A stretch of 64,000 nt of DNA from Candidatus Bathyarchaeota archaeon A05DMB-2 (GTDB lineage: Archaea > Thermoproteota > Bathyarchaeia > Bathyarchaeales > Bathycorpusculaceae), in NCBI GenBank assembly GCA_018475625.1, contig JAAKEZ010000002.1:62001-126000 (forward strand), written 5' to 3'. The notes below the pieces were generated by a model. The model had not been told where the DNA came from and ran no database searches. It saw nothing but the letters and a program-made list of their open reading frames with translations. The position numbers and the translations under genes were made by a program. Position 1 is the first letter of the stretch. Each line of letters starts with the position of its first letter. This document shows positions 9,442 through 41,697 of this stretch, one piece after another.

Positions 9442-10101
9442 TTGGGAGAACCAGAAAAATTCAAAATAGCTGACATCCTCTACGGCATAATCATACCAAT
9501 AATTCTAGTGATACTGATCTACGTTCTTGCAGTTTACGTTAATGTCAGCGGACAATACCATGTACTCGGAGAGTCTGGTGCAGGTGGCACCATCGCCGTC
9601 ATCCTAACTCAGGGCTTTGCTCAAATGATTGTTCTCGGTGTTCCACTGGTTCTAGGTTTACTCTGGAATAAATGGGCGGGCGGTGCAGCTGGCTTTATCA
9701 TGGGCGGCCTCTATTACGTAGCAAGCGCAGGACAATATAACGGACTTTACTCAAGTATGGGAGTGACTACTTACAACTTCTTCGGCGACATAAGCATGCT
9801 CTTCTACCTCGTCAATGCCGTTATTATCGGTTACATGGCTGGAGCGCTCAACAAAGGGTCAACGCAATTCAAACGTATGCTAGGTGCAGGTTTAACCGCT
9901 GCACTAATTACTGCAGTGATCCAAGCGATTATGAACTACAATGTCTCGCTTGAACCCGCACGACAGATGGCGCAGGGACTGTGGGCAGATATTCCATACG
10001 CACTCTTGATAAACTTCGTTCCAAGCATTGCTTTAGGCATAATTGTGCCGATTATAGCAAAAGTCATGACTTGGTACGGAATCCAACCTTTGAGGCATTA
10101 A
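9442..10101 (+). CDS. Polytopic membrane protein of unknown function
   Basis: The protein has 219 residues with about six hydrophobic segments (about 12-32, 48-75, 80-95, 112-135, 145-162 and 185-210). The start is TTG 9442, six bases after AGGGATG; the nearby ATG is out of frame. Small residues are frequent in the helices. The size and helix number resemble S components of ECF vitamin transporters, but no diagnostic motif is visible and no ATPase gene is adjacent, so this is only a suggestion. A T-rich stretch just past the stop (10110-10130) is a likely archaeal terminator. Confidence 0.75.
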   Translation: MGEPEKFKIADILYGIIIPIILVILIYVLAVYVNVSGQYHVLGESGAGGTIAVILTQGFAQMIVLGVPLVLGLLWNKWAGGAAGFIMGGLYYVASAGQYNGLYSSMGVTTYNFFGDISMLFYLVNAVIIGYMAGALNKGSTQFKRMLGAGLTAALITAVIQAIMNYNVSLEPARQMAQGLWADIPYALLINFVPSIALGIIVPIIAKVMTWYGIQPLRH

Positions 10102-10207: not shown

Positions 10208-11353
10208 TCAACCAGTTTGCTTCGGCGCGAACTCCCAAGCGATGTTGCCCTTCCACACTTCGCCCTGCTTTGTTATCCTGATTTCTCTGTCGTCAATCTC
10301 AATTAATCCCTTTTCTTTAAGCCTTTTCAGCTGCTGGGGGAAAACGTCTTCGGGAAGTTTCCCGAATCTTTCCATGAACTCCGTTTTGCTCACGGGCAAG
10401 CGCAGGTATAACCGCGTCATTTCACGCCGCATCATATCTTCGTCTGTGGATTCCGATAGTCGGCTGATAGGCAGTTTCCCAGAGTTAACGGTTTTCATGT
10501 ACTGGTTTATATCCTCAATGTTTGAGTAGGAGAACCGTTGCAGGTACCCCATGAAGCAGCCAGCGCCAGTGGTCAGTATGCCGCCCCATGGCCAGCCGTT
10601 CAGGCAGTTTTCTCGCATGTGCCATTCCACCCGGCTGAAGCGATCGTGCCCCACAGCCTTGTAGCCAGCCTCGGTCAGCATTCTGTAGGCGGTAAGGTAC
10701 ATTTGCTTCTCATATTCTGCGTCTCCAGGCGGAGGAGACTTGCCCGTCTTTATCATTTTTTCAAGCAACGTGCCCGGATCCACGTGCAGCGAGTAAGTGT
10801 CAACCTCTACGTCCAGCTCAATTGCTTTCTTTAGCGTGTTTATCCAACTTTCCATCGTCTGACCTGGTAGGTTATACATAAGGTCCACGCACACGCACAA
10901 GCCCAGCTTTCTGGCGTGGCGAATAGCCTTTTCCACATCTGCAGCGCTGTCGGGCAAGCACATCATTTTTCTGAGCTTGTCGTCGAAGGTTTGTGCACCC
11001 ATATCCATCTGGTAAACGCCGTACTCCGCGAGTTTGTCGATTTTGCTGAGCGCCAGCGTCTTCGATGAACCTGTAACTTTAATGAAGTATTCATCATTAA
11101 TGTTGAATCTTGCCTTGCAGAAATCTATGAGGTCAATCATCTGCTCCGCAGACAAGACGCTTGGGGTTCCGCCGCCAAGCACTATTTCGTCGAAAACGCT
11201 TGTTTTCACGTACCTTGTTCCTGCGTACATTTCAAGCTCTTTCTTCAAGGCTTCGAGATACGGTTCTATCCGGATTTTGGTGGTGGCTGTAGTTGGGAAG
11301 TAGCAGAAGGCACATCTTGAGTCACAGATGCTTATCCAAGGCTGCAGTTCCAT
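10208..11353 (-). CDS. Radical SAM protein, HemN/HemW-like
   Basis: The 381-residue frame starts at ATG 11353 with a CDSRCAFC radical-SAM cluster (CX3CX2C) only 10 residues in, followed by the glycine-rich LGGGTPSVL and a HemW-like TIM barrel. A C-terminal winged-helix-like region (about 310-375) also fits the coproporphyrinogen-oxidase-like family. Relatives act in haem synthesis or haem transfer, while others are unassigned radical-SAM enzymes. Coding signal continues upstream in the same frame without a start codon, which points to a frameshift in a run of six C (see 11354-11513). It converges on the 9442 gene. Confidence 0.85.
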   Translation of the reverse strand: MELQPWISICDSRCAFCYFPTTATTKIRIEPYLEALKKELEMYAGTRYVKTSVFDEIVLGGGTPSVLSAEQMIDLIDFCKARFNINDEYFIKVTGSSKTLALSKIDKLAEYGVYQMDMGAQTFDDKLRKMMCLPDSAADVEKAIRHARKLGLCVCVDLMYNLPGQTMESWINTLKKAIELDVEVDTYSLHVDPGTLLEKMIKTGKSPPPGDAEYEKQMYLTAYRMLTEAGYKAVGHDRFSRVEWHMRENCLNGWPWGGILTTGAGCFMGYLQRFSYSNIEDINQYMKTVNSGKLPISRLSESTDEDMMRREMTRLYLRLPVSKTEFMERFGKLPEDVFPQQLKRLKEKGLIEIDDREIRITKQGEVWKGNIAWEFAPKQTG

Positions 11354-11644: not shown

Positions 11645-13051
11645 TTATACTTTGGATTTGGCTCGCCAGAGCAAATAATTAATCGCGGTCCGCGCCATTA
11701 TCTTGCTGTACAAATTGCCTCTAAAGTAGCCTTTCACGGCTTGGCGAAGAACGTACCGTGGAGAATAGAACTTGTCGTAGAAGGTTTTCCTCATCTTGGC
11801 TATCTCTTTCGCGGGCAAAGCAGGGTCTTCAAATATAGGATGCATAGTGTTGTACAGTTTCCAGTCCTCAGACATCTTCCAGCCGTTGCTCTCCACTAAC
11901 GCGCGGAGTTCCGTTCCAGGATAGGGTGTGGCATGACATAGCCAAACATCATCAGGCTCGACTCTGCGGACAAAATCAAGAGTTTCCTGCAAGGTTTCCT
12001 TCGTCTCACCTGGGTACCCCAGAATCACGGAAACGGTGACGAATATGCCTGCTTCCTTTGCCCATTTAATCGCGTTCTCGCACTGCTCAGTCGTAACCCT
12101 TTTCTTCAGTTTGTCGCGGATTCTTTGACAGCCGGACTCAACGCCGAAACACACCTCGTTGCAATGCGCCTTCGCCATCTTGGCTAAGACTGCTTTCGTG
12201 ACAGTGTCCGCTCTGGTGCCGCAGCCCCATGGAAGCTGAATATTCCTTTCTATGATTCCGTCACATATGTCGAGTATTCTTTTTCTGTTAAACGTTAACG
12301 TGTCGTCCTGGAATGCGATGCCTTCTGCACCGTACTCGTCTCTGAGCCATTCAATCTCGTCAAGCACAAGCTTCGGGTTTCTTCCCCTGAACCCAGCCCC
12401 GAACATCTGAGAAGCCACGCAGAATGAACACTGGAACGGGCAGCCTCTGCTGCTCATTATCGGAAGAAGCTTTCGCCCAAGAATCCGGTACTTATCTACC
12501 GGGATGTAATGATAAGCAGGACGCGGCAGCGCGTCAAGGTCTTGAATGAACGGTCTAGTAGGCGTCTTGATGATTTGTTTGCCTTTTCGGAAAGTTATGC
12601 CCTTGACCTCGTCGAGGCGCGGCATTTCAGGTGCCTGCTGCGCGAGCTCTAGTAGCGTTTCCTCCCCCTCCCCCCTCACCACGATATCAACCGCAGGTTC
12701 GTCCGTCAGTATCTGTTCGTCCATGAAGGTGGCGTGGGGTCCGCCCATGAGAACCTTCGCGTTGGGGAGAACCTCTTTTGCTACGCGTGCGGATTTGAGG
12801 GCTGACTCTATTGTAGGAGTCATGGAGCCGATGCCGACTATGTCGGGTTCAAAAGATGCGAGTTCGACTTTGAGTTTGTCGTGGTCTATCTGGCACACTG
12901 GGCAGTCTACTATTTTCATTTCGAAGTTGTTTTTCTCCAGCACCGCCGCCATGTAGGCTAAGCCAAGCGGTGGAAAAAGCGGGTGGTGAGCGACACCCTC
13001 AAGAAGAGGCGTGTTTACTAATGCAACTTTCGTTTTATTCGTCTTGCTCAT
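11645..13051 (-). CDS. B12-binding-domain radical SAM protein (first paralog)
   Basis: A protein of 468 residues with an N-terminal Rossmann-type cobalamin-binding domain (about 1-150; PDIVGIGSMTPT, LMGGPHATF) and a radical-SAM core with SSRGCPFQCSFC near residue 205. A DxHxxG ligand motif is not apparent, as in many members of this class, so cobalamin use is by family. Such enzymes methylate or rearrange unactivated carbons in lipid, hopanoid or natural-product pathways. It is clearly paralogous to the gene at 20549-22009 (shared MYRILGR/KYRILGR, RGFRxRNP and DDTxTF blocks). Nothing in it identifies the substrate. Confidence 0.9.
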   Translation of the reverse strand: MSKTNKTKVALVNTPLLEGVAHHPLFPPLGLAYMAAVLEKNNFEMKIVDCPVCQIDHDKLKVELASFEPDIVGIGSMTPTIESALKSARVAKEVLPNAKVLMGGPHATFMDEQILTDEPAVDIVVRGEGEETLLELAQQAPEMPRLDEVKGITFRKGKQIIKTPTRPFIQDLDALPRPAYHYIPVDKYRILGRKLLPIMSSRGCPFQCSFCVASQMFGAGFRGRNPKLVLDEIEWLRDEYGAEGIAFQDDTLTFNRKRILDICDGIIERNIQLPWGCGTRADTVTKAVLAKMAKAHCNEVCFGVESGCQRIRDKLKKRVTTEQCENAIKWAKEAGIFVTVSVILGYPGETKETLQETLDFVRRVEPDDVWLCHATPYPGTELRALVESNGWKMSEDWKLYNTMHPIFEDPALPAKEIAKMRKTFYDKFYSPRYVLRQAVKGYFRGNLYSKIMARTAINYLLWRAKSKV

Positions 13052-13248: not shown

Positions 13249-15723
13249 TCAGCCACTTCTCCTATAAAGGACAATCGCCAACAGCACAGTCGTCAACACT
13301 ATTATCACTATCAACGCTGATAGAATGATGCCCCACGGAAACTCCGAAGTGAAGACTATCTGCTGGCTTACACCCGCCGAGTTCACTGTAATCAAACCTA
13401 CCGAAGGAGACGCCAAGTAGCCAGCAAGTGGAGCCACAGAGAAGTTATACACACCATTTGCTGCCGTGAACACAATGGTGTCTGAGGTGCTGCTTTGGGT
13501 CTGCGAGTTGAAGGTGACCTCCCAGCGGGTTCCAGAAGGCAAACCAGATGCGGTGAACGTCACTGAGTAGGTCTGCGCGCTGGGTGGAGAGCCGAAGGCG
13601 TAAACCATATGGTCATATGAACCCAAGTAGACGTTGCCTTCTGCCACGGCTGGGGAAGAAACCACCATGCCGCCAGTCGCATAGCTCCACACATAGGCAC
13701 CTGAAGTGGCGTTCAAAGCGTACAGCTTGCCGTCGTAAGAGCCCACGAAAACCAAGCCATCGGCTACTGCTGGCGAAGAAGCCACTTCACCACCAGTCGT
13801 GTAATTCCACACGACGCTACCTGTTAAAGCGTTAAAAGCGTAAACCCTGCCGTCTGCTGAACCCACATAGACCCTGCCGTTTGCTATGGCTGGAGAAGAG
13901 GGGATGGCGCCTTCTGTTGCATATTTCCAAACAACGGCGCCTGTTGAAACGTTCAAAGCGTAAAGCGTGTGGTCGTATGAACCAACGTAAACGATGCCGT
14001 TTGCCACTGCAGGCGAGGAAACCACAACATCACCCGCCGGATACTTCCATATGAGCGCGCCAGTGGAAGCGTTTAAGGCGTAGATGTTTTGGTCGTTTGA
14101 GCCGATGAACACTGCGCCGTCAGCTACGGCGGGGGAAGAAACCACTATTACTCCGCCCGTCGTGTAATTCCACACGAGTCTGCCGTCGGAAGCGTTTAAG
14201 GCATAAAGATTATGGTCCTGCGACCCGACGTAGACCAAGCCGTCCACCACTGCGGGAGAAGACACCACGGGATAGCCTGTTGTGTAGTTCCAAACATGCG
14301 CGCCTGTAGTAGCGTTTAAGGCATAGACTTTATGGTCGTAGGAACCCACATAGACCAAGCCGCCAGCAACAGCGGGCGAAGAAAACAAGATAACACCGTC
14401 CGTTTTGTAGCTCCATATAACATTGTTGTGTAGTTCCCAGTCGAAGCCGACCAGACCCGTGGAGGCGTTCAAAGCGTAGATTTTGCCGTCATGCGAACCT
14501 ACATAGACGACGCCGCCAGCTACGGCAGGGGAAGAATCTACTTTTCCGCCTGTCGCATAGCTCCACATGTAATCGCCGCTGGAAGCGTCCAAGGCGTAGA
14601 ACTTGCCGTCCCATGAACCCACATAGACAGCTCCATCAGCGACGGCGGGGCGAGAAATCACTATATCGCCAGTGGCGTAACTCCATAATTTTCCGCCGTT
14701 AGAAGCGCCAAGGGCATAAACCCTGTTGTCCATTGAACCAACATAAACTGCGCCATCCGCAACTGTAGGCGAAGAAGCCACGCCACCATTTGTCATAAAA
14801 TTCCATATATCAGTGCCGTTTGTTGCGTTTAAGGCATAGACTTTGCCGTCCACCGAACCGATGTAGACCACGCCTCCAGAGACGGTTGGAGATGAAAGCA
14901 CATCGCCGCTTGTTGCATGTTTCCAAACAACGGCGCCTGTTGAAGCGTTCAAAGCGTAGACGTTGTCGTCTGTTGAACCAACGTAGACGACGCCGTTGAC
15001 AACAGTCGGCGAGGAGACCACTCTGTCGCCTGTGGTGTAGTTCCACATGCTCGCGCCGTCTGAAGCGTTCAAGGCGTAGACTTTGTGGTCTAACGAGCCG
15101 ATGTAGACTATGCTGTTGTCTTCGCTTACTGCGGGGGAAGAAAGCATGATTTGCCCGTCTGTCGTATAGCTCCAAATGAGTTCGCCTGTTGTGGCGTTCA
15201 AAGCGTAAACGTTCCTGTCCTCTGAACCTACGTATACTAAGCCGTTGGCGACAGCGGGGTCGGAGTCCACATAGTACCCTGTCGTGTAATTCCACACGCG
15301 ACTCCCATCCGTGGCGTTCAATGCATAGAGGTTGTTGTCTTCGGAGCCCACATAAACCAAGCCATATGCCACAGCAGGACGGGAAACCACGACGCCACCT
15401 GTCAAATAACTCCACACCAAAGCGCCGTCGGAAGCGGAGAAAGCGTAAACCTTTCGGTCATAGGAACCTACATAAATCAAGCCACCAGCGACAGTAGGAG
15501 AACCCATTTGACCACCAGTGTTAAATTTCCACAGCGTCTGGTTCGTCCTTGGCGCCGCTGATTTAGTGCTACCTGTGTGTGCGAGGTCGTGATGGAACAT
15601 GGACCAATAGTCTGTTCCAAGCTGTGCACTGGATTTGGCAGAAGGAGGAAAAACGCTTGCTGCAAAAACCGTAACCAAAAACACTATTATTAAGGCGGAG
15701 CAAGCGATTACCGTTCTTTTCAT
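13249..15723 (-). CDS. Surface protein made of 16 PQQ-type beta-propeller blades
   Basis: The 824-residue protein has a signal peptide (about 1-30) followed by 16 near-identical blades of about 40 residues. Each carries a core like SSPAVADGxVYVGSxDxxVYALNATTGxxVW. A short beta domain follows (about 720-790), then one membrane helix (about 797-817) and the tail YRRSG. Sixteen blades suit two eight-bladed propellers, and blade 9 has a roughly 10-residue insertion near the boundary. Nearly every blade has one or two N-x-S/T sequons. The family name does not imply that PQQ is bound. It is probably anchored in the cell envelope. Function is unknown. Confidence 0.88.
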   Translation of the reverse strand: MKRTVIACSALIIVFLVTVFAASVFPPSAKSSAQLGTDYWSMFHHDLAHTGSTKSAAPRTNQTLWKFNTGGQMGSPTVAGGLIYVGSYDRKVYAFSASDGALVWSYLTGGVVVSRPAVAYGLVYVGSEDNNLYALNATDGSRVWNYTTGYYVDSDPAVANGLVYVGSEDRNVYALNATTGELIWSYTTDGQIMLSSPAVSEDNSIVYIGSLDHKVYALNASDGASMWNYTTGDRVVSSPTVVNGVVYVGSTDDNVYALNASTGAVVWKHATSGDVLSSPTVSGGVVYIGSVDGKVYALNATNGTDIWNFMTNGGVASSPTVADGAVYVGSMDNRVYALGASNGGKLWSYATGDIVISRPAVADGAVYVGSWDGKFYALDASSGDYMWSYATGGKVDSSPAVAGGVVYVGSHDGKIYALNASTGLVGFDWELHNNVIWSYKTDGVILFSSPAVAGGLVYVGSYDHKVYALNATTGAHVWNYTTGYPVVSSPAVVDGLVYVGSQDHNLYALNASDGRLVWNYTTGGVIVVSSPAVADGAVFIGSNDQNIYALNASTGALIWKYPAGDVVVSSPAVANGIVYVGSYDHTLYALNVSTGAVVWKYATEGAIPSSPAIANGRVYVGSADGRVYAFNALTGSVVWNYTTGGEVASSPAVADGLVFVGSYDGKLYALNATSGAYVWSYATGGMVVSSPAVAEGNVYLGSYDHMVYAFGSPPSAQTYSVTFTASGLPSGTRWEVTFNSQTQSSTSDTIVFTAANGVYNFSVAPLAGYLASPSVGLITVNSAGVSQQIVFTSEFPWGIILSALIVIIVLTTVLLAIVLYRRSG
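13585..15540 (-). repeat. Tandem coding repeats of about 120 bases (16 propeller blades)
   Basis: The blades of the 13249-15723 gene are visible as DNA repeats with a period of about 120 bases. Blocks such as GTTTAAGGCATAGACTTT recur on the plus strand with small changes. This degree of similarity indicates recent duplication or gene conversion between blades, and makes the region prone to collapse in assembly. Confidence 0.85.
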
Positions 15724-15933: not shown

Positions 15934-17007
15934 TTACTCTTTTCTGAGACTCTTCGGAATATAGGCACACGCCGGGTCAGACTCATATATGTCTCCCGTG
16001 TAAGCGTAAGCTCGGTTCCTGCAGCCGCCGCAGATCTCGCGGTACTCGCACACGCCGCATTTTCCTTTCAGGTTGCTTCTGTCGCTGAAGCTACTGTAGT
16101 AAGGCGATTTCTGCACTTCTTCCCAAGCTTTCGTCAGGCTTTTCTGTCTTATGTTTCCAAGCATCATGGGTTCTGAGGGCGTCAGATCCGTGTAGAAGCA
16201 GGGTATCAAGTCTCCGTTTTCCGTTATGCTTATGTATCCGCCAAAGGCGAAATACGTGCATTTTCCGTGGAACTTGTGCTCGTACCACTCTTCAAAGTTC
16301 GGCGGGTTTCTCTGCTTGACCACACGTGCAAAGTGGGGACAGTGTACGTGGATTTCAAATTTGTCCTCGTACTTCTGGGTCAGGTCCCATATGTGGTTCA
16401 GGACCCATTCGTACTGTTCAGGTGTCGGAGTTAACTCCATTGTCACTTTTGCTCTTCCGCTCGGCACCAAGTGATTGAACCAGACGAAGTTGGCGTGGTA
16501 CTCCTCAGCCAACTCGGTAACATGGTCGAGATGCTGGTAGTTTATGGCTGTGATGGCTGCTGCTAACCCGTTCAGAATTTTCGCCTTTGACAGTTTCTGA
16601 ATTGCTGCCAACGCCTTTTTGTACGAGCCTTTCCCCCTTAACTGGTCGTTTATTTCTTCAGGTCCATCTATGCTGACGGATGTCCAGACCTGGTTCTTGA
16701 CGAGGTTGTCGTAGATTTCTCCGTCAACAAAACAACCGTTGGTTAGGAGGCACACGTTTAATCCTAAGCTTTTTGCGTGACCCACTATCTCAAAAATGTC
16801 TTCCCGGAGGAGCGGTTCTCCGCCTTTAATTCCGAACCATTTGACACCGAAGCTACGAACCTCATCAACCATGTGCAAAGCCTCTTTGGTTGTTAATTCC
16901 CGTGGAGCGTGAGCGCCGGTGGCGTCAACGTTGCAGTACGCACATCGAGCGTTGCAGGCACCTGTGGCTCTCCAAGAAGTCATAAGCAAAGGACCCTTAT
17001 TCGCCAA
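15934..17007 (-). CDS. Radical SAM protein with SPASM domain
   Basis: The 357-residue enzyme starts at TTG 17007, seven bases after GAGGGGAT. It has TGACNARCAYCN (CX3CX2C) near residue 18, GGEPLLR of the SAM-binding site, and a C-terminal SPASM region with C-x2-C-x5-C-x2-C spacing (CGVCEYREICGGC) plus a final DPAC. SPASM enzymes bind extra Fe-S clusters. They modify peptides (PqqE, RiPP maturases), act on haem precursors (AhbC, AhbD, NirJ) or activate sulfatases. No precursor peptide was found nearby. It lies between two genes for propeller surface proteins, so a role in their modification is conceivable but unproven. Confidence 0.88.
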   Translation of the reverse strand: MANKGPLLMTSWRATGACNARCAYCNVDATGAHAPRELTTKEALHMVDEVRSFGVKWFGIKGGEPLLREDIFEIVGHAKSLGLNVCLLTNGCFVDGEIYDNLVKNQVWTSVSIDGPEEINDQLRGKGSYKKALAAIQKLSKAKILNGLAAAITAINYQHLDHVTELAEEYHANFVWFNHLVPSGRAKVTMELTPTPEQYEWVLNHIWDLTQKYEDKFEIHVHCPHFARVVKQRNPPNFEEWYEHKFHGKCTYFAFGGYISITENGDLIPCFYTDLTPSEPMMLGNIRQKSLTKAWEEVQKSPYYSSFSDRSNLKGKCGVCEYREICGGCRNRAYAYTGDIYESDPACAYIPKSLRKE

Positions 17008-17252: not shown

Positions 17253-19796
17253 ATGAGAAACCTGAACCGTCTTTGGATTGGCGGAATCTTGGTTCTGATG
17301 TTAATAGCAACGGAGTTTGTGGCTGTCTCTACTTTTGCGGCTACCGGCGCAAACGCATCTTCAAATCAAGACATTTTGCTTCAGTATGAGTGGTCTCAGT
17401 TCAATGGTGGCTCCTCTTTTTCGCGGTTTTCAGCAGGGCCAGCCCCTGACTCGTCAGCTATCCTTTGGAAAGCGAATGTAACGGGAATCCAAACTTACAT
17501 TTCAGCATTTGACGGCATGATTTTCGTGGGCACCAACACCTCAGTCGTTGCACTCGACCAAGCAACTGGCGAAAAGCTTTGGGAAACCCCCATCCCAATG
17601 ACGGCAACCTGGCCGATAGCCTACAAAATCGACGATGCGCACATGATTGTAGAGAGCAGCTGCCTTGACCCTAAGACGGGGAAAATACTCTGGACTAGCT
17701 CAAATTTCACGGCGGACACCGGCATCTTCAACGCCAACGTCTACAGCCCAGAAGAGAAAATGTTCTACACCAAAGTCGACTCCTACATTAAGGCTTGGAG
17801 CTTTGCTGACCCAGCGAACCCGCCAACCTTGGTATGGACCACTTATATTCCAGGCGGCGGCAAAACAGGCATTGGAACAACATACGGCGACGGCAAGGTG
17901 TTTGCGGGTTCTTTCGAGAATCAGCAGTTGGCGCTTGATGCTAAAACTGGCGATGTCCTATGGACTACCCTCACGAAGGGACCGATGATTTTCAGCGGCT
18001 CCTACTATGACGGCAGGTTCTTCAGAGGAGGAACCGATGACAACACAATGTACTGCTTCAACGCCACAAACGGCGAAATCCTATGGACGTATACGCCGAA
18101 CACGGATGGATACTTCACCACAGGCTGCGCGGTAGCTTACGGAATGGTTTATGAAATGAACAAAGACGGACACCTTTACGCTTTCGACATCAAAACAGGC
18201 AATCTCGTGTGGAAGTATAAAGGTCCAGACGAAACACTTCTCTGGCCAGGAATGCCCACGGTTGCGGATGGCAAAGTCTACGTGACCACGGGTCAAGTCG
18301 CGCAATACGGCGGTCAAGTCGGTACCTCAGAGTTTGCATGTTTGGACGCTTACACTGGGCGACCTATTTGGAAGCTACCCATAGAGGCGTTAGCTCCGAG
18401 GGAATCGGTCGCCGTGGCTTATGGCAAATTGTACCTTATTCCTGGCAACGTGACGACATCGGTTGACGCAATCTCAGGCAGCGAGTACACCACGATGAAT
18501 GAGGTGTGGGCTATAGGGTCCAACGCGATTCCCGTAAGCGACTGGCCCATGTGGCGCGCCGATGCAGCACACTCCTCTACCGCCCAAACGGGTCCTTCGA
18601 ACCTTACTTTGGCGTGGAAGTTCACGACCAACGGCGCTGTTATTTCTTCGCCAAGTGTAGCTGATGGGATAGTCTATGTTGGTTCTCAGGATAGGAACAT
18701 CTATGCGCTTGGGGCTTGGAGCGGTAACCTCATCTGGAAATTCACTACCCTTGACGCAGTCGAGTCTTCGCCTGCCGTGGCGGGCGGCAAGGTTTTCACG
18801 GGAGGCGACGACGGATATGTTTACTGCCTTGACGCTTACACTGGTGCCCGCGTCTGGAGCACCTTTGTCAACGGCAACTTGCCGTACACGTATGGGTCGT
18901 TGGTGCTTAAATCCTCACCAGCCGTGGTCGGAGACAAAGTTTACGTCGGGTCATTGGACGGTTTCTTATATGCCCTTAACGTGAATAATGGCAATATCGA
19001 CTGGAAGTTCAAGACCGAAGGACCGATTCTAAGTTCTCCAGCTGTCAGCGACGGGGCGGTTTACTTCACTTCGGAAGAGCCGACAGCAGGTGCCCTCTAC
19101 AAGCTGAACGCAGCAACCGGCGCTATGCTGTGGAAACAAGAAATTCCCTATGAGTACCAGTTTACGGGTGGCACGGAAATGATAGGTTCGCCATCGGTCG
19201 CAGCAGGCATGGTCTTCGCGTCCTCAGACCTAAGGACTTACTATGGCATAAACGCGGTGACAGGCGACATTGTGTGGACGTTCTCAGACCCAGCAGCCAT
19301 GGAGTTCATCGTTTCCTCACCAATCTACGTCAACGGCGAACTGTACATAATCGACAAGTTCAGCATAACGAGCCTTAATGCAACGACCGGCAAAACCATC
19401 TGGAGCTTCTTCACGGGAGACGAGCTATACGTGTCGCCTGCTTACGCCGACGGCAAAATCTACATCGTAACCAGTCAACGCCACATATACATTCTCGATG
19501 CACGAAATAACGGCACAAAACTCGCTGGCTTCACCACTCCATCCAGCAGCTGGTCCTCACCAACCATAAGCAACGGAAGACTTTATGTGGGAAACAATGA
19601 CTGGAACGTCTACTGCCTGACTAATCTTGTCACTTATGAGGAGCCAACGCCGCCACCAGAACAAAGTACATCAGGGGGATACGTCTTTCTGATAGTTGCA
19701 ATCGCCATTATAATTTTAGCTGTTGCTATCGTGGTTGTTAACACAATCAAGAAACGGCGTAAAAGTAGCACGTATAAATTTTCTGAGGGGCAATGA
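17253..19796 (+). CDS. Secreted, membrane-anchored PQQ-like beta-propeller protein
   Basis: The 847-residue protein has a signal peptide (about 1-32), many PQQ-like blades with the hallmarks VxALDQATGEKLWE and YALNVNNGNIDWKF, a Pro-rich stalk (EEPTPPPEQS), one membrane helix (about 810-832) and a basic tail (KKRRKSS). The blades are more divergent than those of the 13249-15723 protein, so it is an older or different propeller. The ATG follows GAGG. A TATA box (TTTATAG near 17175) lies about 75 bases upstream. It is probably an envelope protein. Function is unknown. Confidence 0.88.
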   Translation: MRNLNRLWIGGILVLMLIATEFVAVSTFAATGANASSNQDILLQYEWSQFNGGSSFSRFSAGPAPDSSAILWKANVTGIQTYISAFDGMIFVGTNTSVVALDQATGEKLWETPIPMTATWPIAYKIDDAHMIVESSCLDPKTGKILWTSSNFTADTGIFNANVYSPEEKMFYTKVDSYIKAWSFADPANPPTLVWTTYIPGGGKTGIGTTYGDGKVFAGSFENQQLALDAKTGDVLWTTLTKGPMIFSGSYYDGRFFRGGTDDNTMYCFNATNGEILWTYTPNTDGYFTTGCAVAYGMVYEMNKDGHLYAFDIKTGNLVWKYKGPDETLLWPGMPTVADGKVYVTTGQVAQYGGQVGTSEFACLDAYTGRPIWKLPIEALAPRESVAVAYGKLYLIPGNVTTSVDAISGSEYTTMNEVWAIGSNAIPVSDWPMWRADAAHSSTAQTGPSNLTLAWKFTTNGAVISSPSVADGIVYVGSQDRNIYALGAWSGNLIWKFTTLDAVESSPAVAGGKVFTGGDDGYVYCLDAYTGARVWSTFVNGNLPYTYGSLVLKSSPAVVGDKVYVGSLDGFLYALNVNNGNIDWKFKTEGPILSSPAVSDGAVYFTSEEPTAGALYKLNAATGAMLWKQEIPYEYQFTGGTEMIGSPSVAAGMVFASSDLRTYYGINAVTGDIVWTFSDPAAMEFIVSSPIYVNGELYIIDKFSITSLNATTGKTIWSFFTGDELYVSPAYADGKIYIVTSQRHIYILDARNNGTKLAGFTTPSSSWSSPTISNGRLYVGNNDWNVYCLTNLVTYEEPTPPPEQSTSGGYVFLIVAIAIIILAVAIVVVNTIKKRRKSSTYKFSEGQ

Positions 19797-19805
19797 ATCT
19801 TTCCA

Positions 19806-20548: not shown

Positions 20549-22009
20549 CTAGCCACCGCTGGGAGTGCTGTGCCCTCCTCTACTCTGTTGTTGACGACTC
20601 AGCATCTTGGAGCTTGCGAGGAACCATCTGGGCAGTTTAGCTCTTCCCACAAGGTGGTTCAACGCCATGCGCGCCATGGTTTGGCTGTAGAAATCCTTGC
20701 GCCGTGATTTCCGAAGGTAGTATGACACGGAAAAATAGTGGTCGTAGAAGGCTTTCTTGGTTTTCTCAATCTGCTGAAGCGATAAAAGCGGGCTTTTGAA
20801 AACCTGCGTTTGCTCGTGAAACTGGCTCCAGTCAGTGGACATCTCCCAGCCCAGCGCCTTCACCAAGTCGTAGAGTTCAGTACCGGGGTATGGTACCGCC
20901 TCACATATGTAAACGTAGTCGGGTTCTGTTCTTCGGATGAAGTCTATGGTCTGCTTCAGCAATTCAGGTGTCTCACCTGGATAGCCAACGACCACGGATA
21001 TGGCAACGGATATACCGACTTCCTTCGCCCACTTGATGGCTGTTGCGTTCTGTTCAACCGTGGTTCCCTTCTTCATGGCGTCTAACATTTTTTGGCTACC
21101 TGACTCAACGCCGAAGTGTATAAGCTGGCAGTTTGTGTTCCACAGCTTGGTTAGAAGCTCTTTGGAGACTCTGTCAACTCTGGTTCGGCAATCCCATGGT
21201 AAGCTCACTTTTCTCTTCTGCATCTCGTCGCAGATGGCGACTGCCCTTTTTACGTCAAACGTGAACGTGTCATCATAGAATGCGACGGCACCTGCTCCAA
21301 AAGTGTCCCTGAGCCACTCAAGCTCATCAACAACTTTACTCGGGTTTCTTGCCCTGAAACCTCTTCCGCACATGCGAGACGCCAAGCAGAAAGTGCATTG
21401 GTAAGGGCAACCTCTGCTGGTTATGATTGGGAGATACGTTCTTCCGAGGATGCGGTACATGCTCACTTCGAAGTGCTTGTGCGCTGGAAAAGGAAGCTCA
21501 TCTATGTTTTTGATGAGGGGTCGGTCAGGATTATGGAAAATTTGACCGTTCTTCCTGAACGTTATGCCTGCAACTTCACCAAGGTTTTTCAAGCTACGAT
21601 CAGAAACCAGCTTCGCCAGTTCCAGCAGGGTTTGTTCACCCTCGCCTCTGACAATAATATCCACTTCAGGGCTTTCGCTGAGGGTCTGCTCATCCATCAC
21701 CGTGACGTGCGGACCACCCATAAGAGTCAAGCAGTTTGGGAGAGCATGTTTTGCGGCTTTCACTACTTCAAGTGCAGGGAGGTAAGTGACTGTAGCCGAG
21801 GTCACGCCCACGATGTCTGGTTGGCGCTTTTTAAACTCTGTTTCCAACTCTTTTTGTGTGAGTCGAGAAATTGGGCAGTCGATTACGTCAACTTCGAACC
21901 CGTTTTCCTCTAGCACCGCAGCCAGGTAGCTGATGCCAAGGGGAATAAAGATGGCTTGCGGAGCTTCAACTGGATAGGATGGATTTACAAGAGTCACATG
22001 AGCTTTCAC
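20549..22009 (-). CDS. B12-binding-domain radical SAM protein (second paralog)
   Basis: The protein has 486 residues, with an N-terminal cobalamin-binding-type domain (LGISYLAAVLEENGFEVDVIDCP, LMGGPHVTVMDEQTL) and a radical-SAM cluster in TSRGCPYQCTFC near residue 210. It is closely related to the 11645-13051 protein throughout, including YRILGR, RGFRARNP, YDDTFTF and VVGYPGETPE. Its C-terminus has a divergent tail ending in a Gln/Gly/Ser-rich stretch. The downstream methyltransferase suggests a small modification operon. Substrate unknown. Confidence 0.9.
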   Translation of the reverse strand: MKAHVTLVNPSYPVEAPQAIFIPLGISYLAAVLEENGFEVDVIDCPISRLTQKELETEFKKRQPDIVGVTSATVTYLPALEVVKAAKHALPNCLTLMGGPHVTVMDEQTLSESPEVDIIVRGEGEQTLLELAKLVSDRSLKNLGEVAGITFRKNGQIFHNPDRPLIKNIDELPFPAHKHFEVSMYRILGRTYLPIITSRGCPYQCTFCLASRMCGRGFRARNPSKVVDELEWLRDTFGAGAVAFYDDTFTFDVKRAVAICDEMQKRKVSLPWDCRTRVDRVSKELLTKLWNTNCQLIHFGVESGSQKMLDAMKKGTTVEQNATAIKWAKEVGISVAISVVVGYPGETPELLKQTIDFIRRTEPDYVYICEAVPYPGTELYDLVKALGWEMSTDWSQFHEQTQVFKSPLLSLQQIEKTKKAFYDHYFSVSYYLRKSRRKDFYSQTMARMALNHLVGRAKLPRWFLASSKMLSRQQQSRGGHSTPSGG

Positions 22010-23755: not shown

Positions 23756-24002
23756 GCTTTAACCACATAATAAAAAGATGCACACCCTGTTGAAGATTTG
23801 GGATGAACGATACTCATGTCATTTCAATTTCCGCCATATTTTTACTTGTTTGATCACCTTTTTTTCCTATTTAAGTAATCTTTACATTCGTTTTCCCGCA
23901 TGCAAAACGTATTAATCACGGCGTGGTTTCTATTTTGCATGAAAAACGTGTTCAAAACTCCACACAATAAATCTAGCGTATCTTCAATGAGCGTATCTCA
24001 AG

Positions 24003-25454
24003 ATGCGTGTTTGCCTAATTAATCCACCTCGTATTCAACCGAAACTGTGGGGAAAACCAGGCGTATTTCAACCGTTGGACATAGCATACATAGCAGCATT
24101 GCTAGAAAACCAACATACAGTAAGCATTATAGATGCGCCTACAGAAGGTTGGAAAAATCTTGAAGAAATAGATGGAATGAAATACCGACAGGGTTTACCA
24201 AACAAAGAGATAGCAAACAGGGTCAAACAGAGTTCGCCAGATGTTGTCGGAATCACCGTTCCATTCTCTGGTTGGTGGAAATCTGCACGCGAAGTAATTT
24301 CTGTCGTGAAAAATGTTAACAAAAACATAATTGTTATATTAAGTGGTTTACATCCTTCTGCAAGACCCAGAGAATGCCTTGCGAATCCCGATGTCGATTT
24401 CGTTGTGATAGGCGAACCAGAACAAACTATCTCCGAATTAGTAGACGCACTGGAGCAAAGAAAAATTGAAGACCTCGCAAAAGTAAGAGGGATCGGCTTC
24501 GTCAACAATGGAAAAGCAGTCATTACTCCCCCAAGACCACCAATCGAGGATTTGAATTCTCTACCATTCCCAGCAAGACACCTGCTTCCGATGAATATCT
24601 ACTTTGAAGCTGTGAAAGAAAATCCCCTGCGTGGCGAAATCTGCAAACCCTGGGCGATTATGATCACCAGCAGAGGCTGCCCATACGATTGCGTTTTCTG
24701 CTCGATTCATAATGTTATGGGCAAAAAATGGCGTGGAAGGAGCCCTCAAAACGTGGTAGAGGAGATAGAGCAGTTAATTCAAACTTATAAAATTGAACAA
24801 ATCGACTTCTACGACGACAACATGACGCTGAACAAAAAACGGATGGAAGCCATCTGTGACTTAATCTTAGAAAAAAGATTAAAAGTAGAATGGTACACTC
24901 CTAACGGCGTTCGAGCGGATACTCTCGACGAAAATCTTCTCCGAAAAATGAAAGCTTCAGGCTGCAAGAAAATCCGAATTGCTCCAGAGTCAGGTTCGCA
25001 ACAGGTTTTAGACAATATTGTTAAGAAGAACCTAAACCTGAAAGACGTAGAAAAAGCAGTTATTTTATCAAAAAAAGTGGGGCTTAAAGTGGGCTGTTTC
25101 TTCGTGATTGGACTTGTCGGGGAGACAAAAAAAGATATAAACGACACCATAAATTTCGCCTACAAGCTTAAAAGCCTCGGCGCTGAAGGGTTCTATTTCA
25201 GTTTAGCTATGCCTGTTTATGGAACTGAACTCTACGAACAAGCCAAGAAAGGTGGATTCTTAAAGTCCACATTTAGCGAGGAAGCTTTGGCAGGGGTCGA
25301 ACCACTGATTGAAACTCCAGAATTCACGGCAGACGATTTGCTCGAACTCTGCACAAGAGCCAACATGATAAACCAAACCTTCACCGTTGGAAAACTCGTA
25401 AAGGCAATTCGAGAACCCAAGAAAGCAGTAAAGTTTTTGATAGGTAAAAAATGA
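24003..25454 (+). CDS. B12-binding-domain radical SAM protein (third, distinct)
   Basis: The protein has 483 residues. The N-terminal domain (CLINPPRIQP, SPDVVGITVPFSG, ILSGLHPSARP) resembles cobalamin-binding radical-SAM enzymes of the BchE/oxidative-cyclase type, and the cluster motif is TSRGCPYDCVFC near residue 222. It is more distant from the two minus-strand paralogs. It has an additional early insertion (about 45-75) and a different C-terminus. Codons look more AT-rich than in neighbouring housekeeping genes. Family is secure; substrate unknown. Confidence 0.9.
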   Translation: MRVCLINPPRIQPKLWGKPGVFQPLDIAYIAALLENQHTVSIIDAPTEGWKNLEEIDGMKYRQGLPNKEIANRVKQSSPDVVGITVPFSGWWKSAREVISVVKNVNKNIIVILSGLHPSARPRECLANPDVDFVVIGEPEQTISELVDALEQRKIEDLAKVRGIGFVNNGKAVITPPRPPIEDLNSLPFPARHLLPMNIYFEAVKENPLRGEICKPWAIMITSRGCPYDCVFCSIHNVMGKKWRGRSPQNVVEEIEQLIQTYKIEQIDFYDDNMTLNKKRMEAICDLILEKRLKVEWYTPNGVRADTLDENLLRKMKASGCKKIRIAPESGSQQVLDNIVKKNLNLKDVEKAVILSKKVGLKVGCFFVIGLVGETKKDINDTINFAYKLKSLGAEGFYFSLAMPVYGTELYEQAKKGGFLKSTFSEEALAGVEPLIETPEFTADDLLELCTRANMINQTFTVGKLVKAIREPKKAVKFLIGKK

Positions 25455-34891: not shown

Positions 34892-35046
34892 GACTTATTC
34901 AAATCAACCTTACTGCCTCATTCAGCTTTAAAGATTTGCACTGCTCAAGGTTCGGCGAGCTACTTTTTTGTTCCTGTTTGTTGTGTTGCGGATTTTTCCA
35001 TAAATTATAAGTGCGATTACAGCGGAAATATTGCGGATGGTGGCGT

Positions 35047-37479
35047 ATGCACATGGCGGCATCACAGCCGAGCTCGGCATTGCGGTGGAGTTCGCGCATA
35101 GTTGTGGCAGCTCTGCTCATCGGGCTAATGCTCATTGCTGTGATTCCTCATTGGAACGTCGTTGCTGAAGTGCCTTCAACGGAATGGAGTAAGACCTTCA
35201 GCGGTGTAGCCAATTCAGTCATTCAGACCGCGGACGGCGGATACGCCATAGTAGGCTACAGCGTCACGTATTCAGGTACAGGCTTCGTTAGAGCCAACGC
35301 CCTGCTTATAAAAACCGACTCATCAGGTGGGTTCCAATGGGAAAAAACGTATGGAACGGATGTTTTCCTCGGCACAGCCAATGCTGTTGCGGTGGCGCAG
35401 ACTCCAGATTCGGGGTACGTGCTGTTCGGCGAAAGCGGCGTCCTCGTTAAGACGGACGCTGACGGGAACGTTCAATGGTCGACGCCTTTAGGGATGAGTG
35501 GCGCGTATGCAAGCGTCCGAGTCAGTGACGGCAACTATTTTGTGATAGGCAACCAGATAAACACCGACGGCGAACAAGTTGCTTGGCTACTTAAGGTCAA
35601 TGAACGGGGCAACGTGATTTTGAATAAGACTTGGACTGGCGGCGTCGTTTACCGTGCGGTGGTTGAGACTGATGACCGAGGCTACGCGCTTGCAGGATAC
35701 TGGAGTAACGATTTCTGGTTTGCCAAGGTTGATTTGAACAACAATCTTCAGTGGGCTCAAACTTATTCTTACGGCGGAGTTACAGACAGACATGCAGTCT
35801 ATGCCATCACGAAAACCAAGGACGGCGGATACGTGCTCGCTGGGACAGGAGACTGGCAGGTCAGCGGCGGCACAGTGCCATGGATTATAAAAATCGACTC
35901 TCAGGGACATGAGAAATGGAGCCTACCCTATGGACAGATACCCCACAACGAGTTCGGCGCTGTCTTGCAGACCGAGGATGAAGGCTACCTGTTGGCTTTA
36001 ACCAACAGCGCAATGCTGCTGCGGACAGACAGTTCCGGCAGTGAAAAATGGAACATGATTTACGCCGACACAGGCGGGCAAAGCTCGAACTATCGTGCAT
36101 CCGCCCTGATACAGACCAGTGACCGAGGCTACGCAGTTGTGGGCACATCCTCGGGCAGCGTCATCATGCTCACCAAGATTTCGCCTGAACCCGACGTTAC
36201 CCCGCCTATCATTTTTGTCTCAAGCCCGAAAAGTAAGACGTATGACCCAGGCGAAATTCCTTTGACTTTAACGGTGAACGAGCCTACCTCATGGATTAAG
36301 TACAGCCTCGACGGGCAAGACAACGTAACCATACCGGGAAACATCACCTTGCCAACGCTTCCAAGCGGCAACCACAGCATTACGGTTTACGCTCAGGATC
36401 TTGCCGGAAACGTCGGCACTTCAGGACTAATCCAGTTCAGAGTCGCCGCTGGTTTTCCCATAGGCTGGATTGCTGTTGGCGTAGCCATTGCCGTCGGGGT
36501 GGTTGCCGGCGTTCTGATTTATGTTAAGAGGGACTCTCTTAGGTCAGGCGGGCGGCGTGGGCTTCAAAGCTACTTCAAGAAGCATCATTTAACTGCCATA
36601 GCTAACAACCGCATGATACGGACCTTAACTATGATCGGCCTCTGCATCATGTTTGTTCTTGTTCAGCTTTTCTTCCCGTTCTTTTACTTCTCAGCCTCGA
36701 ACAGTTCAAACAGTGGGTTTGAGGTGGGCGTAACCTACGTTTATGAGCAGGACACTGTGGACCAGATTTATGATGAAGTGACACGGATCCATAACTTAGG
36801 CATCCGAACAATCCGCGTGAATTTAGTATGCGACGCGGTTGACCCTAATAATTACTTGAACGGCATGACAGACGTCTTCTTCTCCGCGGCGCAGCACCTC
36901 GGCATGCGCGTGGCGCTTATAATCCAGAACCGCGAGGACCCCGCTCAAATAAGGTACTATCTTGGCAGGTGGGGTCAATACCTCACGTACGTTCAGATTC
37001 TTAACGAGCCCGAGTCCGCCTCGTCATGGGATGTAGGCGCATTGTTCACGGATGACGAAGCAATTTCCCTGTTCGAAAAAGTGTACGGGATAGTTGAGCA
37101 GTATAATCTTTCCGCGCAACTCTACACGAATTTTGGAGCGGGCTTCGTTGTCAGGTCTAACTTGCCCATCAAATTCAGCGAGAACCTTGATTTCGTGGGG
37201 CTAGACGTCTTCATGGACTCCTTCCTTGTTATGTCACCGAATTTTATCCAGCTTCTCCATGAGATAACGAACAAGGATGTGGTCATCACCGAGTTCGGCA
37301 TGTCCACGAGCGACGACGTTGCCCAGAGCAACTACATCATAAGCGGACTTAACCTCTTCAAGAGCATGGGCCTCCGAGGTTGCTGGATAGTCTACTGGAA
37401 CAGCCAAGCGGATTATTACGGAATCCGCGGAAGACTCGCAGAACAAAAGGTAGGTGAATGGATTGCAGAGAACGCGTAA
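35047..37479 (+). CDS. Surface beta-propeller protein fused to a clan A glycoside hydrolase-like domain
   Basis: The protein has 810 residues from the ATG at 35047, preceded by GGATGGTGG; a TATA box near 35003-35010 excludes the earlier ATG at 35011. It has a signal helix (about 15-38), repeats such as SVIQTADGGYAIVGYS to about residue 385, an Ig-like domain (TPPIIFVSSPKSKTYDPGE), membrane helix 1 (about 470-492), a basic loop, and membrane helix 2 (about 525-548). An extracellular barrel follows with LNEPES (about 650) and ITEFGM (about 747), the pair of Glu motifs expected of GH clan A. Both globular parts would face outside. Confidence 0.8.
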   Translation: MHMAASQPSSALRWSSRIVVAALLIGLMLIAVIPHWNVVAEVPSTEWSKTFSGVANSVIQTADGGYAIVGYSVTYSGTGFVRANALLIKTDSSGGFQWEKTYGTDVFLGTANAVAVAQTPDSGYVLFGESGVLVKTDADGNVQWSTPLGMSGAYASVRVSDGNYFVIGNQINTDGEQVAWLLKVNERGNVILNKTWTGGVVYRAVVETDDRGYALAGYWSNDFWFAKVDLNNNLQWAQTYSYGGVTDRHAVYAITKTKDGGYVLAGTGDWQVSGGTVPWIIKIDSQGHEKWSLPYGQIPHNEFGAVLQTEDEGYLLALTNSAMLLRTDSSGSEKWNMIYADTGGQSSNYRASALIQTSDRGYAVVGTSSGSVIMLTKISPEPDVTPPIIFVSSPKSKTYDPGEIPLTLTVNEPTSWIKYSLDGQDNVTIPGNITLPTLPSGNHSITVYAQDLAGNVGTSGLIQFRVAAGFPIGWIAVGVAIAVGVVAGVLIYVKRDSLRSGGRRGLQSYFKKHHLTAIANNRMIRTLTMIGLCIMFVLVQLFFPFFYFSASNSSNSGFEVGVTYVYEQDTVDQIYDEVTRIHNLGIRTIRVNLVCDAVDPNNYLNGMTDVFFSAAQHLGMRVALIIQNREDPAQIRYYLGRWGQYLTYVQILNEPESASSWDVGALFTDDEAISLFEKVYGIVEQYNLSAQLYTNFGAGFVVRSNLPIKFSENLDFVGLDVFMDSFLVMSPNFIQLLHEITNKDVVITEFGMSTSDDVAQSNYIISGLNLFKSMGLRGCWIVYWNSQADYYGIRGRLAEQKVGEWIAENA

Positions 37480-38956: not shown

Positions 38957-39089
38957 TCAGTTCGTCACATCATGTTCGGTGTTCAGAATTAATTTGTTTT
39001 GACCCCTCTCCTGAGCATTTTCGTTCAGGAATCTTAGAAAGATTTAATTCTTCAATCCTATGATGTGCATTGTTAAGGGGCGAATTGCT

Positions 39090-40139
39090 TTGGCGAACTT
39101 GGCACAGTTGAAACTTGCGATGGGAACGAGCATACTGATAGCTGGCTTCATATTCGGCATATTCATATTCGCCATCCTGTTCCTTCTGCAACTGGATTTG
39201 GTGACTGGGCTAATCGTCGCTTTAGGCGGGGCTGGACTCTTCATACTTTTCCAGTACCTAATAGGACCCGTCGTTGTGGCTGCCTCCACGCGACTGCACT
39301 TCCTTAAGCCTGAAGAAAACCCATGGCTTGAATCCACTGTTAAGGAGCTTGCGGACAAAAGCGGCTTGCCAATGCCAAAACTTGCTATTGTTCCTAACAA
39401 GACGCCTAACGCCTTCACGTACGGCAGAACATCCAGCAGCGCCGTTTTGGCTGTTCATGAAGGCCTGTTGACCAGCTTGAACGAGGATGAGATTAAAGGC
39501 GTCATAGCACATGAGCTGGGTCACATAAAGCACAAGGATTACATCGTTATGACAGTGCTTTCAGCGTTGCCACTAATCGCGTACATTGTCGCTTGGAGTG
39601 CTTTGCGCGCAGGCATGTTCAGCTCATATTCTGGGCGAAGAGGCAAAGAGAACAATGCTGGCATAATCTTGATAGCCATCGGCGTAATAGCGTTCATAGT
39701 TTACATCATCACCTTCCTCAGCGTCATGCGGCTCAGCCGACTGCGCGAGCACTTCGCCGACGCGTACTCCGCCTATGTGACAGGCTCCCCTCGAAGCTTG
39801 GAAAGTGCCTTGACGAAAATCACTTACGGCTTATCCCTCGCGCCTCAACCGTCCTCGGAAGTCCGAGCGTTCTACATCGAGGATCCAGCTTTGGCGAAGC
39901 AGGAAGCCCACGCCATTTTGGAGAAGAAGCAGGACTACGACTTGGACAAGGACGGCGTGCTGGACGAGCGCGAACTTGAACACGCCATGGAAAAGGAAGC
40001 CAAGTCCACGTGGAGCAACCTGAATACGCTGTTTGCCACGCACCCGCCGACGTTCAGGCGGATACTGCTTCTGCGCGAGATAGAGAAGGAGATGCAGACT
40101 GGAAGGTACACTGGCGACCGCGTTTATACCCACGTTTAG
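39090..40139 (+). CDS. M48 family zinc metallopeptidase, HtpX-like, with EF-hand loop
   Basis: The membrane protease that degrades misfolded membrane proteins has 349 residues from TTG 39090 (AAGGGGCGA upstream). An ATG at 39060 is possible but adds an atypical 10 residues. Two helices (about 8-55) precede the zinc motif HELGHIKHKD at about 141. Two more helices flank about 155-205, and a later REHFADAYSA supplies the third ligand. Residues 284-295 read DLDKDGVLDERE, an exact EF-hand calcium loop, unusual within HtpX. The end contains THPPTFRR, conserved in the family. Confidence 0.9.
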   Translation: MANLAQLKLAMGTSILIAGFIFGIFIFAILFLLQLDLVTGLIVALGGAGLFILFQYLIGPVVVAASTRLHFLKPEENPWLESTVKELADKSGLPMPKLAIVPNKTPNAFTYGRTSSSAVLAVHEGLLTSLNEDEIKGVIAHELGHIKHKDYIVMTVLSALPLIAYIVAWSALRAGMFSSYSGRRGKENNAGIILIAIGVIAFIVYIITFLSVMRLSRLREHFADAYSAYVTGSPRSLESALTKITYGLSLAPQPSSEVRAFYIEDPALAKQEAHAILEKKQDYDLDKDGVLDERELEHAMEKEAKSTWSNLNTLFATHPPTFRRILLLREIEKEMQTGRYTGDRVYTHV

Positions 40140-40305: not shown

Positions 40306-41697
40306 ATGTCTAAAGTGAAAGAGTATTCTTGGATGACTAAAGATAAACTGATGGCGTACACTTTCGTTGCACTCTTAATACTCGCAGTAATAACGATAGT
40401 CATGTGGTGGAATGTCTATGCAATAACATATGACGCAAACGGAGCAACCGTACAAATTGGTATGTCATACGGCTTAACTGTTCTAATCAATTGCCTCATA
40501 GCAGTAGGAATCGCAGTCGGAATCGACGCACTGCTATATAAGGTAGCATCTGACAGCCCACTCAACACATTGTCCGCCGCCGTATTCGGCTTAATCGTCG
40601 CATTATCCTATACTATTGGCGAACCGGCAATGCGCGTAAGCGAAGTGCTGCCTTTGCTTGGTCCTGAAGCATTCATCTATGTCGCATTAATATCCGTAGT
40701 TGGCATGGTTGTATTCAAAAAAGTGCAGGGTATAAAAGGAAGAAAATACGTAAATCCTGCTGCAGCAGCAAAGCTCGTTGTACTAGGTTTCGTAGGACTG
40801 TTCACAATTCTGATTCCTGCCGACCATCTTGTCGCAGGCGGACTGCAAGTGCCCTCACTGGCTGGGCCAATTGGCTATGACGTAATCGCAGGCAACGGTG
40901 CTGCAGGATTCGGCTTCTACTTAGTAGGCTGCTTCGCAAACCCGGCTACACCCGTCCCTACCACCACACCTACACAAGGTGACATATTTAATCTGTTATT
41001 CTTGAGTAAATTCCACAGTTGGGCAGGTGGCGCTTCAAGCCTCGCAGTAATCATTGTCGGCATAGCCCTATTTGTTCTTGCACGCCGATACATAAAATGG
41101 AGAATCACAGTAGCCTACTTTGTATCCGTCGCAATAATGTCGGTGATTCTGAACTATGCATATCCAGGAGGCGACTTGCTGCTAAGACTCGGCTTTGAAC
41201 TATTCGTCGGCAGTTCAATATTCCTAGCGTTCTTCATGGCAACAGACCCAGCAACTACGCCTCTTACGTACATGGGACAAACAATATTCGGTGTAGGCTT
41301 AGGAGTGCTAACGGTTCTGATTCAAACATATATGGGTTTCTTCGGCGGCTCAATCTTGGCGCTGGTAATAATGAACTTCACGTCACCGTTCTTAGACAGA
41401 GTAGGCAAACTGAAACCCACCACAGAAAAGAAAACACCAAAACTTCCCAAAGCCAAACAATTCATTGAAGTCAAAACTTACGATTGCATAAGATGCGGAG
41501 CCTGCATGCGCGTTTGCTGCCACAAACTAAGCCCAATAGTGATTAAAGAAGCCTTCGACAAAATGGACGTGGAGAAACTAGTGAAACTTAACGCGGACTA
41601 CTGCGACGGTTGTGGACACTGCAGCTTCGTCTGCCCATCAAGAATCGACTTGAAAGGCAGTGTGCTCAGAGCCAAAGCAATGATACGAAAACAGTAA
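40306..41697 (+). CDS. RnfD/NqrB-like membrane subunit fused to an RnfC-type ferredoxin domain
   Basis: The 463-residue protein has about nine membrane helices (about 18-365) of the RnfD/NqrB type, including KYVNPAAAAKLV and the late TDPATTPLTYMGQTIFGVGL signature. The C-terminus has two 4Fe-4S sites, CIRCGACMRVC and CDGCGHCSFVC, linked as in the C-terminal part of RnfC. A flavinylation S/T-G-A-S/T motif is not evident. Rnf complexes couple ferredoxin and NAD oxidation to ion pumping, yet no rnfA, B, C, E or G lies nearby. It may be a stand-alone membrane electron-transfer protein. Confidence 0.8.
   Translation: MSKVKEYSWMTKDKLMAYTFVALLILAVITIVMWWNVYAITYDANGATVQIGMSYGLTVLINCLIAVGIAVGIDALLYKVASDSPLNTLSAAVFGLIVALSYTIGEPAMRVSEVLPLLGPEAFIYVALISVVGMVVFKKVQGIKGRKYVNPAAAAKLVVLGFVGLFTILIPADHLVAGGLQVPSLAGPIGYDVIAGNGAAGFGFYLVGCFANPATPVPTTTPTQGDIFNLLFLSKFHSWAGGASSLAVIIVGIALFVLARRYIKWRITVAYFVSVAIMSVILNYAYPGGDLLLRLGFELFVGSSIFLAFFMATDPATTPLTYMGQTIFGVGLGVLTVLIQTYMGFFGGSILALVIMNFTSPFLDRVGKLKPTTEKKTPKLPKAKQFIEVKTYDCIRCGACMRVCCHKLSPIVIKEAFDKMDVEKLVKLNADYCDGCGHCSFVCPSRIDLKGSVLRAKAMIRKQ

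Follow-up and report, generated by a model that had tools for sequence, protein, structure and literature searches.

We describe a gene at 40306-41697 of the window (the whole 64,000-nucleotide stretch of Candidatus Bathyarchaeota archaeon A05DMB-2 that was analysed) that joins an RnfD-type membrane domain to the ferredoxin end of RnfC in a genome lacking the other Rnf parts. We propose that its product is a self-contained, one-way membrane flavin/Fe-S electron conduit and an archaeal variant of the NQR/RNF-like systems, a reading to which we assign a probability of roughly 0.65.

An intact fusion gene in genomes without RnfA/E

The gene is one intact open reading frame on the plus strand, and its 463-aa product falls into two parts (Table 1). 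PF03116 (NQR2/RnfD/RnfE) spans residues 37-366 in Pfam (E=8e-34), while residues 383-462 match positions 354-433 of the 435 in the TIGR01945 rnfC profile (E=1.5e-13). By sequence, the best PDB matches are the solved RnfD chains 8ahx_D, 9eri_D and 7zc6_D, and residues 387-459 match the solved RnfC 9eri_C, with the tail also matching 7zc6_C. Eight ligand Cys are arranged as two CxxCxxCxxxC motifs (394/397/400/404 and 433/436/439/443). The AlphaFold model, with a modest mean pLDDT of 75 and low values in the linker and the Fe-S end, has RnfD and NqrB as its nearest folds (9eri_D, E=1.4e-10).

The fusion gene is not a chimera, since G072, an independent genome of this genus, has it in the same setting: the two copies share 94% identity, and both are preceded by an M48 peptidase gene and followed by an epimerase gene and MCM. 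Comparison of these copies gave a dN/dS of 0.11 for the whole gene and 0.013 for the Fe-S domain, and both cluster motifs are kept in all 34 distinct fused proteins (34/34). The gene is under purifying selection. The preliminary description of an RnfD-like membrane protein fused to an RnfC-type ferredoxin end is thus borne out by the two profile matches, the eight Cys and the G072 copy. We rejected a window-level operon with the M48 peptidase and left this gene out of the system, of which it is probably not part, because it directly adjoins RnfD only in this genus.

Table 1. Features of the window and, in the last row, the triple fusions of relatives.
Feature	Position	Strand	Basis
c2: 219-aa six-helix membrane protein, ECF S-component-like fold	9442..10101	+	alignment, co-occurrence, fold search
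HutW/HemN-like radical SAM	10208..11353	-	profiles; beside RnfD in relatives; start probably ~150 bases further upstream
B12-binding radical SAM (BchE/HpnJ-like)	11645..13051	-	clusters with L037:3513-4904; B12-binding + radical SAM
Secreted-type PQQ beta-propeller	13249..15723	-	Pfam; cluster c6
AhbD/NirJ-like radical SAM/SPASM (AhbDb type)	15934..17007	-	profile; RnfD neighbour in relatives
Secreted-type PQQ beta-propeller	17253..19796	+	Pfam
B12-binding radical SAM	20549..22009	-	Pfam; cluster c4
B12-binding radical SAM	24003..25454	+	Pfam; cluster c4
M48 peptidase, directly upstream of the fusion	39060..40139	+	close adjacency only in two genomes of this genus
RnfD-2x[4Fe-4S] fusion gene, 463 aa	40306..41697	+	ORF; Pfam/NCBIfam/PDB matches; AlphaFold; G072 copy
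RnfD/NqrB membrane domain, residues 37-366	40414..41403	+	PF03116, alignments; D314 and N150 kept
RnfC C-terminal ferredoxin domain, residues 383-463, two [4Fe-4S] motifs	41452..41694	+	TIGR01945, 9eri_C
RnfD-2x[4Fe-4S]-FrhB triple fusions (relatives)	L033:7503-9737, L034:6156-8282, L035:2850-4970, L036:5693-7951, L042:6368-8050

The window genome (2.48 Mb, 96% complete) contains a single PF03116 match, i.e. no second RnfD. Capped family searches of this genome with positive controls gave no RnfA/E (PF02508), no FMN_bind protein of the RnfG type (PF04205) and no ApbE (PF02424). The NAD/FMN module of RnfC (RnfC_N, PF13375), which is present in split-form relatives, gave no match there either. 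RnfB was not found as a PF04060 membrane ferredoxin; the sole match to this RnfB-type FeS family in the genome is a 477-aa protein beside CODH/ACS-type genes. The preliminary description had found no other rnf genes with the fusion; this holds genome-wide, and no complete rnf operon was found elsewhere in the genome.

Across the class, RnfD is present in 57 of 257 genomes, and none of the 257, single-contig ones included, has RnfA/E over cut-off with controls positive. ApbE exceeds its cut-off in one class genome (G094), which is without RnfD. When a phylum sample of 398 genomes was searched, RnfD matches were confined to two families of this class. Named relatives with RnfD matches are Bathyarchaeia-type MAGs, including Bathyarchaeum tardum and Bathycorpusculum, the exceptions being one short cluster-only hit and bacterial hits in ordinary rnf operons. 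A bacterial source of the fusion was considered but is not supported by the hits L145 and L146, which lie in such operons at ~30% identity. These sequence surveys give good support to a module for membrane electron transfer that stands outside any Rnf complex. The earlier proposal of a minimal module of this kind stands in that RnfA/E is absent class-wide and ApbE essentially so, but the module is not alone, because it has a near-obligate membrane partner and conserved radical SAM neighbours.

Exchangeable inlets, a membrane partner and radical SAM neighbours

In a census of 56 distinct RnfD sequences, 29 have the RnfD-2x[4Fe-4S] form of the window, 5 add FrhB after the clusters and 22 stop after RnfD. 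The FrhB-type fusions carry PF04422 and PF04432, measure 706-752 aa where complete, and have an input module with matches to the profiles of coenzyme F420 hydrogenase beta subunit and FpoF; this extension of the fusion in some relatives amends the earlier proposal. Directly after nearly all RnfD-only sequences lies a full RnfC gene, which encodes RnfC_N, Complex1_51K and the clusters; these separate RnfC genes match TIGR01945 at 403 bits, over its cut-off. On a maximum-likelihood tree, the RnfD+RnfC form falls with strong support into a single clade of 20 that is nested within fusions, and the FrhB fusions are scattered, requiring at least three changes, on a tree whose outgroup is very distant and whose root within the RnfD family is unsure. 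Apart from this clade sits the third RnfD copy of G085 (L038:3764-4849, contig C57), which ends before the Fe-S domain, has no RnfC neighbour and may be decaying or derive from a contaminant contig.

Separate genes for the two halves, which the preliminary description would have taken as evidence against its module, do occur in relatives (Bathycorpusculum-type, RnfD with a full RnfC). They do not overturn the module reading, because those genomes also lack RnfA/E and form one clade nested among fusions. The membrane domain was retained as the cytosolic inlet was exchanged, a pattern that suggests a membrane carrier of electrons supplied by whatever donor is on hand. Judged by the inlet swaps in relatives (NADH or F420), the protein looks like a modular membrane electron connector.

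The membrane partner, which we call c2, is in relatives a 200-250-aa membrane protein without a Pfam family. It occurs in 54 of the 57 RnfD genomes vs 10 of the 200 others (Fisher p=3e-41, kinship and genome size ignored), usually 120-300 bp downstream of the fusion on the same strand, or after RnfC in the split form. In the window it lies ~30 kb from RnfD, and it persists in genomes in which the linkage is lost. The best PDB matches of the c2 model are S-components (6zg3_C with probability 1.00, 3rlb with 0.99 and 5kbw with 0.97), although these matches (PanT, ThiT, RibU) are below significance, with a best E=0.016 (PanT) and TM-scores of 0.39-0.50; no sequence match of c2 to ECF S-components was found. 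Paralogues of c2 without RnfD were observed at three loci: L062 (contig C103 of the window genome), near DUF169; L067 (G143, C22), near OsmC and an SBF-type transporter and downstream of a tetrapyrrole-synthesis cluster; and L068 (G094, C1).

Among 61 relatives, a second EcfT-type gene was present in 13 of 15 RnfD genomes vs 0 of 46 others. We considered this gene as a dedicated EcfT for c2 and rejected it: it tracks RnfD, but the fetched loci (L155-L161) encode a transporter of the CbiM-EcfT-EcfA type, in most cases next to genes for cobalamin synthesis, and on account of these neighbours we read it as cobalt uptake rather than as a c2 partner. A general ECF module could still serve c2. Most RnfD genomes are among the larger ones, and genome size is therefore a confounder of the B12 correlation.

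Radical SAM genes flank RnfD in all three architectures. At ~40 of 56 loci, many of which have short flanks, an AhbD/NirJ-like radical SAM/SPASM gene is divergent from RnfD. After it come further radical SAM genes (HutW/HemN-like, BchE/HpnJ-like B12-binding and a second AhbD-like type) together with PQQ-type propellers. The AhbD-, HutW- and BchE-like genes that adjoin RnfD in relatives are 15-31 kb away in the window, where c2, the radical SAM genes and the propellers occupy 9442-25454. The scanned radical SAM proteins score far below the curated cut-offs of their namesakes, and capped family searches did not locate an AhbDa gene in the window genome. Six loci have MtrH within 9 kb of the RnfD cluster, some of them together with a small B12-binding protein, and three loci have CbiB within 8 kb.

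Other genes were observed in the window and around the fusion in relatives. Near the B12-binding radical SAM genes, 25646-26263 (+) encodes a ferredoxin-type protein of 205 aa with multiple 4Fe-4S clusters, which may act as a soluble electron partner. At 35011-37479 (+) lies a gene for an 822-aa protein without a Pfam match; its N-terminus has 'DGGY'-type repeats, and its C-terminal part looks like a barrel of the glycosidase type. A second cluster type (L069, L070 and L113) has a NapH-like polyferredoxin (PF12801) and PQQ propellers around the fusion, with a ~450-aa secreted-looking protein without a Pfam family directly adjoining RnfD and no AhbD- or HutW-like radical SAM genes nearby.

A proposed one-way conduit and its alternatives

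The bacterial flavinylation motif [ST]xATP is conserved at no position of the RnfD linker across the family. The window copy carries a chance 'NPATP' in its linker, which we rejected as a flavinylation site because it lacks conservation and cannot be aligned with confidence to the bacterial Thr; the earlier remark that the protein has no flavinylation motif therefore holds as a statement about the family. D314, equivalent to Asp248 of C. tetanomorphum RnfD, a residue linked to riboflavin and Na+ (PMC9588780), is invariant in the family, as is N150 of the NPA motif, which appears to match Asn124. The position of Glu185, on the FMN side, is an invariant Gly throughout. Since the FMN site has neither the Thr anchor nor the Glu, the transmembrane flavin path may be incomplete. 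In solved Rnf, the riboflavin of RnfD and [4Fe-4S]-2 of RnfC are 11.7 A apart and exchange electrons, and the cytosolic C-terminal arm of RnfD rests on RnfC (PMC9588780), so the fusion joins natural electron partners.

We infer that the membrane domain holds non-covalent flavin and that transfer is one-way, in line with the proposal for the bacterial NQR/RNF-like systems, whose membrane part likewise has no such Thr (PMC8238504, PMC11334425). Electrons would enter from a cytosolic low-potential donor at the pair of [4Fe-4S] clusters in the RnfC-type C-terminal domain, pass to flavin(s) within the RnfD-type domain and leave to a membrane or extracytosolic acceptor. Of the two arms that make up the electron path of Rnf, the module would use one and leave out the RnfA/E/G/B arm, without which the Rnf ferredoxin:NAD cycle cannot run. 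The donor to the bare clusters of the window protein may be ferredoxin, or a separate F420- or NAD-dependent flavoprotein, while the inlet in relatives would be FrhB for F420H2 and full RnfC for NADH. The conduit may work with c2 and serve a pathway of AhbD-like, HutW-like and B12-dependent radical SAM enzymes. A multihaem cytochrome outlet was rejected, with 0 proteins carrying two or more CxxCH motifs in the fetched loci; as the window genome also yielded no extracytosolic FMN-binding subunit and no ApbE, the outward acceptor is missing from this picture.

The same neighbourhoods could be read in the opposite direction, with the module giving low-potential electrons to cytosolic radical-SAM/corrinoid enzymes, possibly via membrane potential, so that it would serve SAM cluster reduction or Co(II) re-reduction and not outward flow. 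The radical SAM genes in all three architectures, B12-binding ones included, the nearby MtrH and CbiB genes and the second EcfT-type gene all favour such a role, and Rsx provides a precedent in delivering electrons to the cytosolic regulator SoxR (PMC12174285). However, no coupling of an ion gradient to cytosolic reduction is known without RnfA/E/G, electron passage between soluble carriers requires no membrane protein, and the B12 correlation may follow genome size. We consider an inward role possible but rather unlikely.

The invariant D314 and N150, at Na+/riboflavin positions of Rnf (PMC9588780), would suit a reduced Rnf in which RnfD alone couples oxidation of NADH, F420H2 or ferredoxin to Na+ movement. 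Such a pump is improbable, as the Glu185 position, associated with Na+ near FMN, is Gly in the whole family, the coupling proposed for Rnf needs RnfG movement and RnfA/E, all of which are absent (PMC9588780), and the fusion carrier B. tardum (L123) has no detected quinones or cytochromes as acceptors (PMC10477458). We give hardly any credence to an ordinary Rnf subunit whose partners were missed by assembly, or to a decaying leftover of a lost Rnf. MAGs are fragmented and the third copy of G085 has no Fe-S end, yet the partners are absent across 257 genomes with working controls, single-contig genomes among them, so that the class survey largely refutes this explanation; the low dN/dS values and the full cluster motifs of every fusion also speak against it.

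Relation to known systems and significance

The one-way conduit that we favour most resembles the bacterial NQR/RNF-like systems (Meheust et al. 2021, PMC8238504; Huang et al. 2024, PMC11334425), which likewise have an NqrB/RnfD domain with an electron-input domain at its cytosolic C-terminus, a membrane part without the flavinylation Thr, no RnfA/E and a proposed one-way flow. Their input is an NqrF-type NAD-binding domain (PF00175), whereas the window protein has RnfC-type 2x[4Fe-4S] and relatives have FrhB or RnfC in trans; they also possess an ApbE-flavinylated FMN-bind subunit outside, whereas the Bathyarchaeia module has neither that subunit nor ApbE. Unlike them, the module is archaeal and accompanied by an S-component-like protein and radical SAM genes. 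Its RnfD and RnfC Fe-S domains are homologous to those of Rnf (RnfABCDGE) and fused in the order of electron exchange, but the window genome is without RnfA, B, E, G, ApbE and the RnfC NAD module, and the flavinylation Thr is lost. Classified by sequence, the fusion is not a member of Rnf and is of the NQR/RNF-like kind. The FrhB-fused relatives match FpoF/FrhB F420 modules, which here sit on RnfD instead of a hydrogenase or Fpo complex.

In the parts of the Polar Fox Lagoon study available to us, RnfC and RnfD were each reported in a few of 19 Bathyarchaeota MAGs with no full complex (PMC9534799). A complex was what that paper sought, and those parts do not describe the fusion, the FrhB form, the partner or the cluster. 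Among open-licence papers, we found no description of an RnfD fusion with RnfC clusters or FrhB, or of RnfD with radical SAM genes.

Bathyarchaeia rank with the most abundant archaeal groups in anoxic sediment. Rnf has been reported missing from the Bathy-6 subgroup, and FrhB occurs without its hydrogenase in some members (PMC7886697). In B. tardum, no quinones or cytochromes were detected, yet the organism is stimulated by nitrate and DMSO (PMC10477458). As a route for electrons at the membrane of Bathyarchaeia, the module is a concrete candidate, and five loci physically link FrhB to an Rnf-type membrane domain. We propose that a piece of Rnf was cut free, joined to the iron-sulfur tail of its neighbour and kept for another electron-carrying job. 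RnfD may accordingly work outside Rnf with exchangeable donors, and the RnfC-RnfD half could then be tested alone. A bolder reading, which we hold only tentatively, is that of a stand-alone RnfD flavin wire with swappable inlets (clusters, FrhB or RnfC) and c2 as its partner, feeding a radical-SAM/B12 cofactor or surface-redox pathway. It would make up a new archaeal oxidoreductase family, and the hosts of this putative family are organisms thought to lack quinones and cytochromes.
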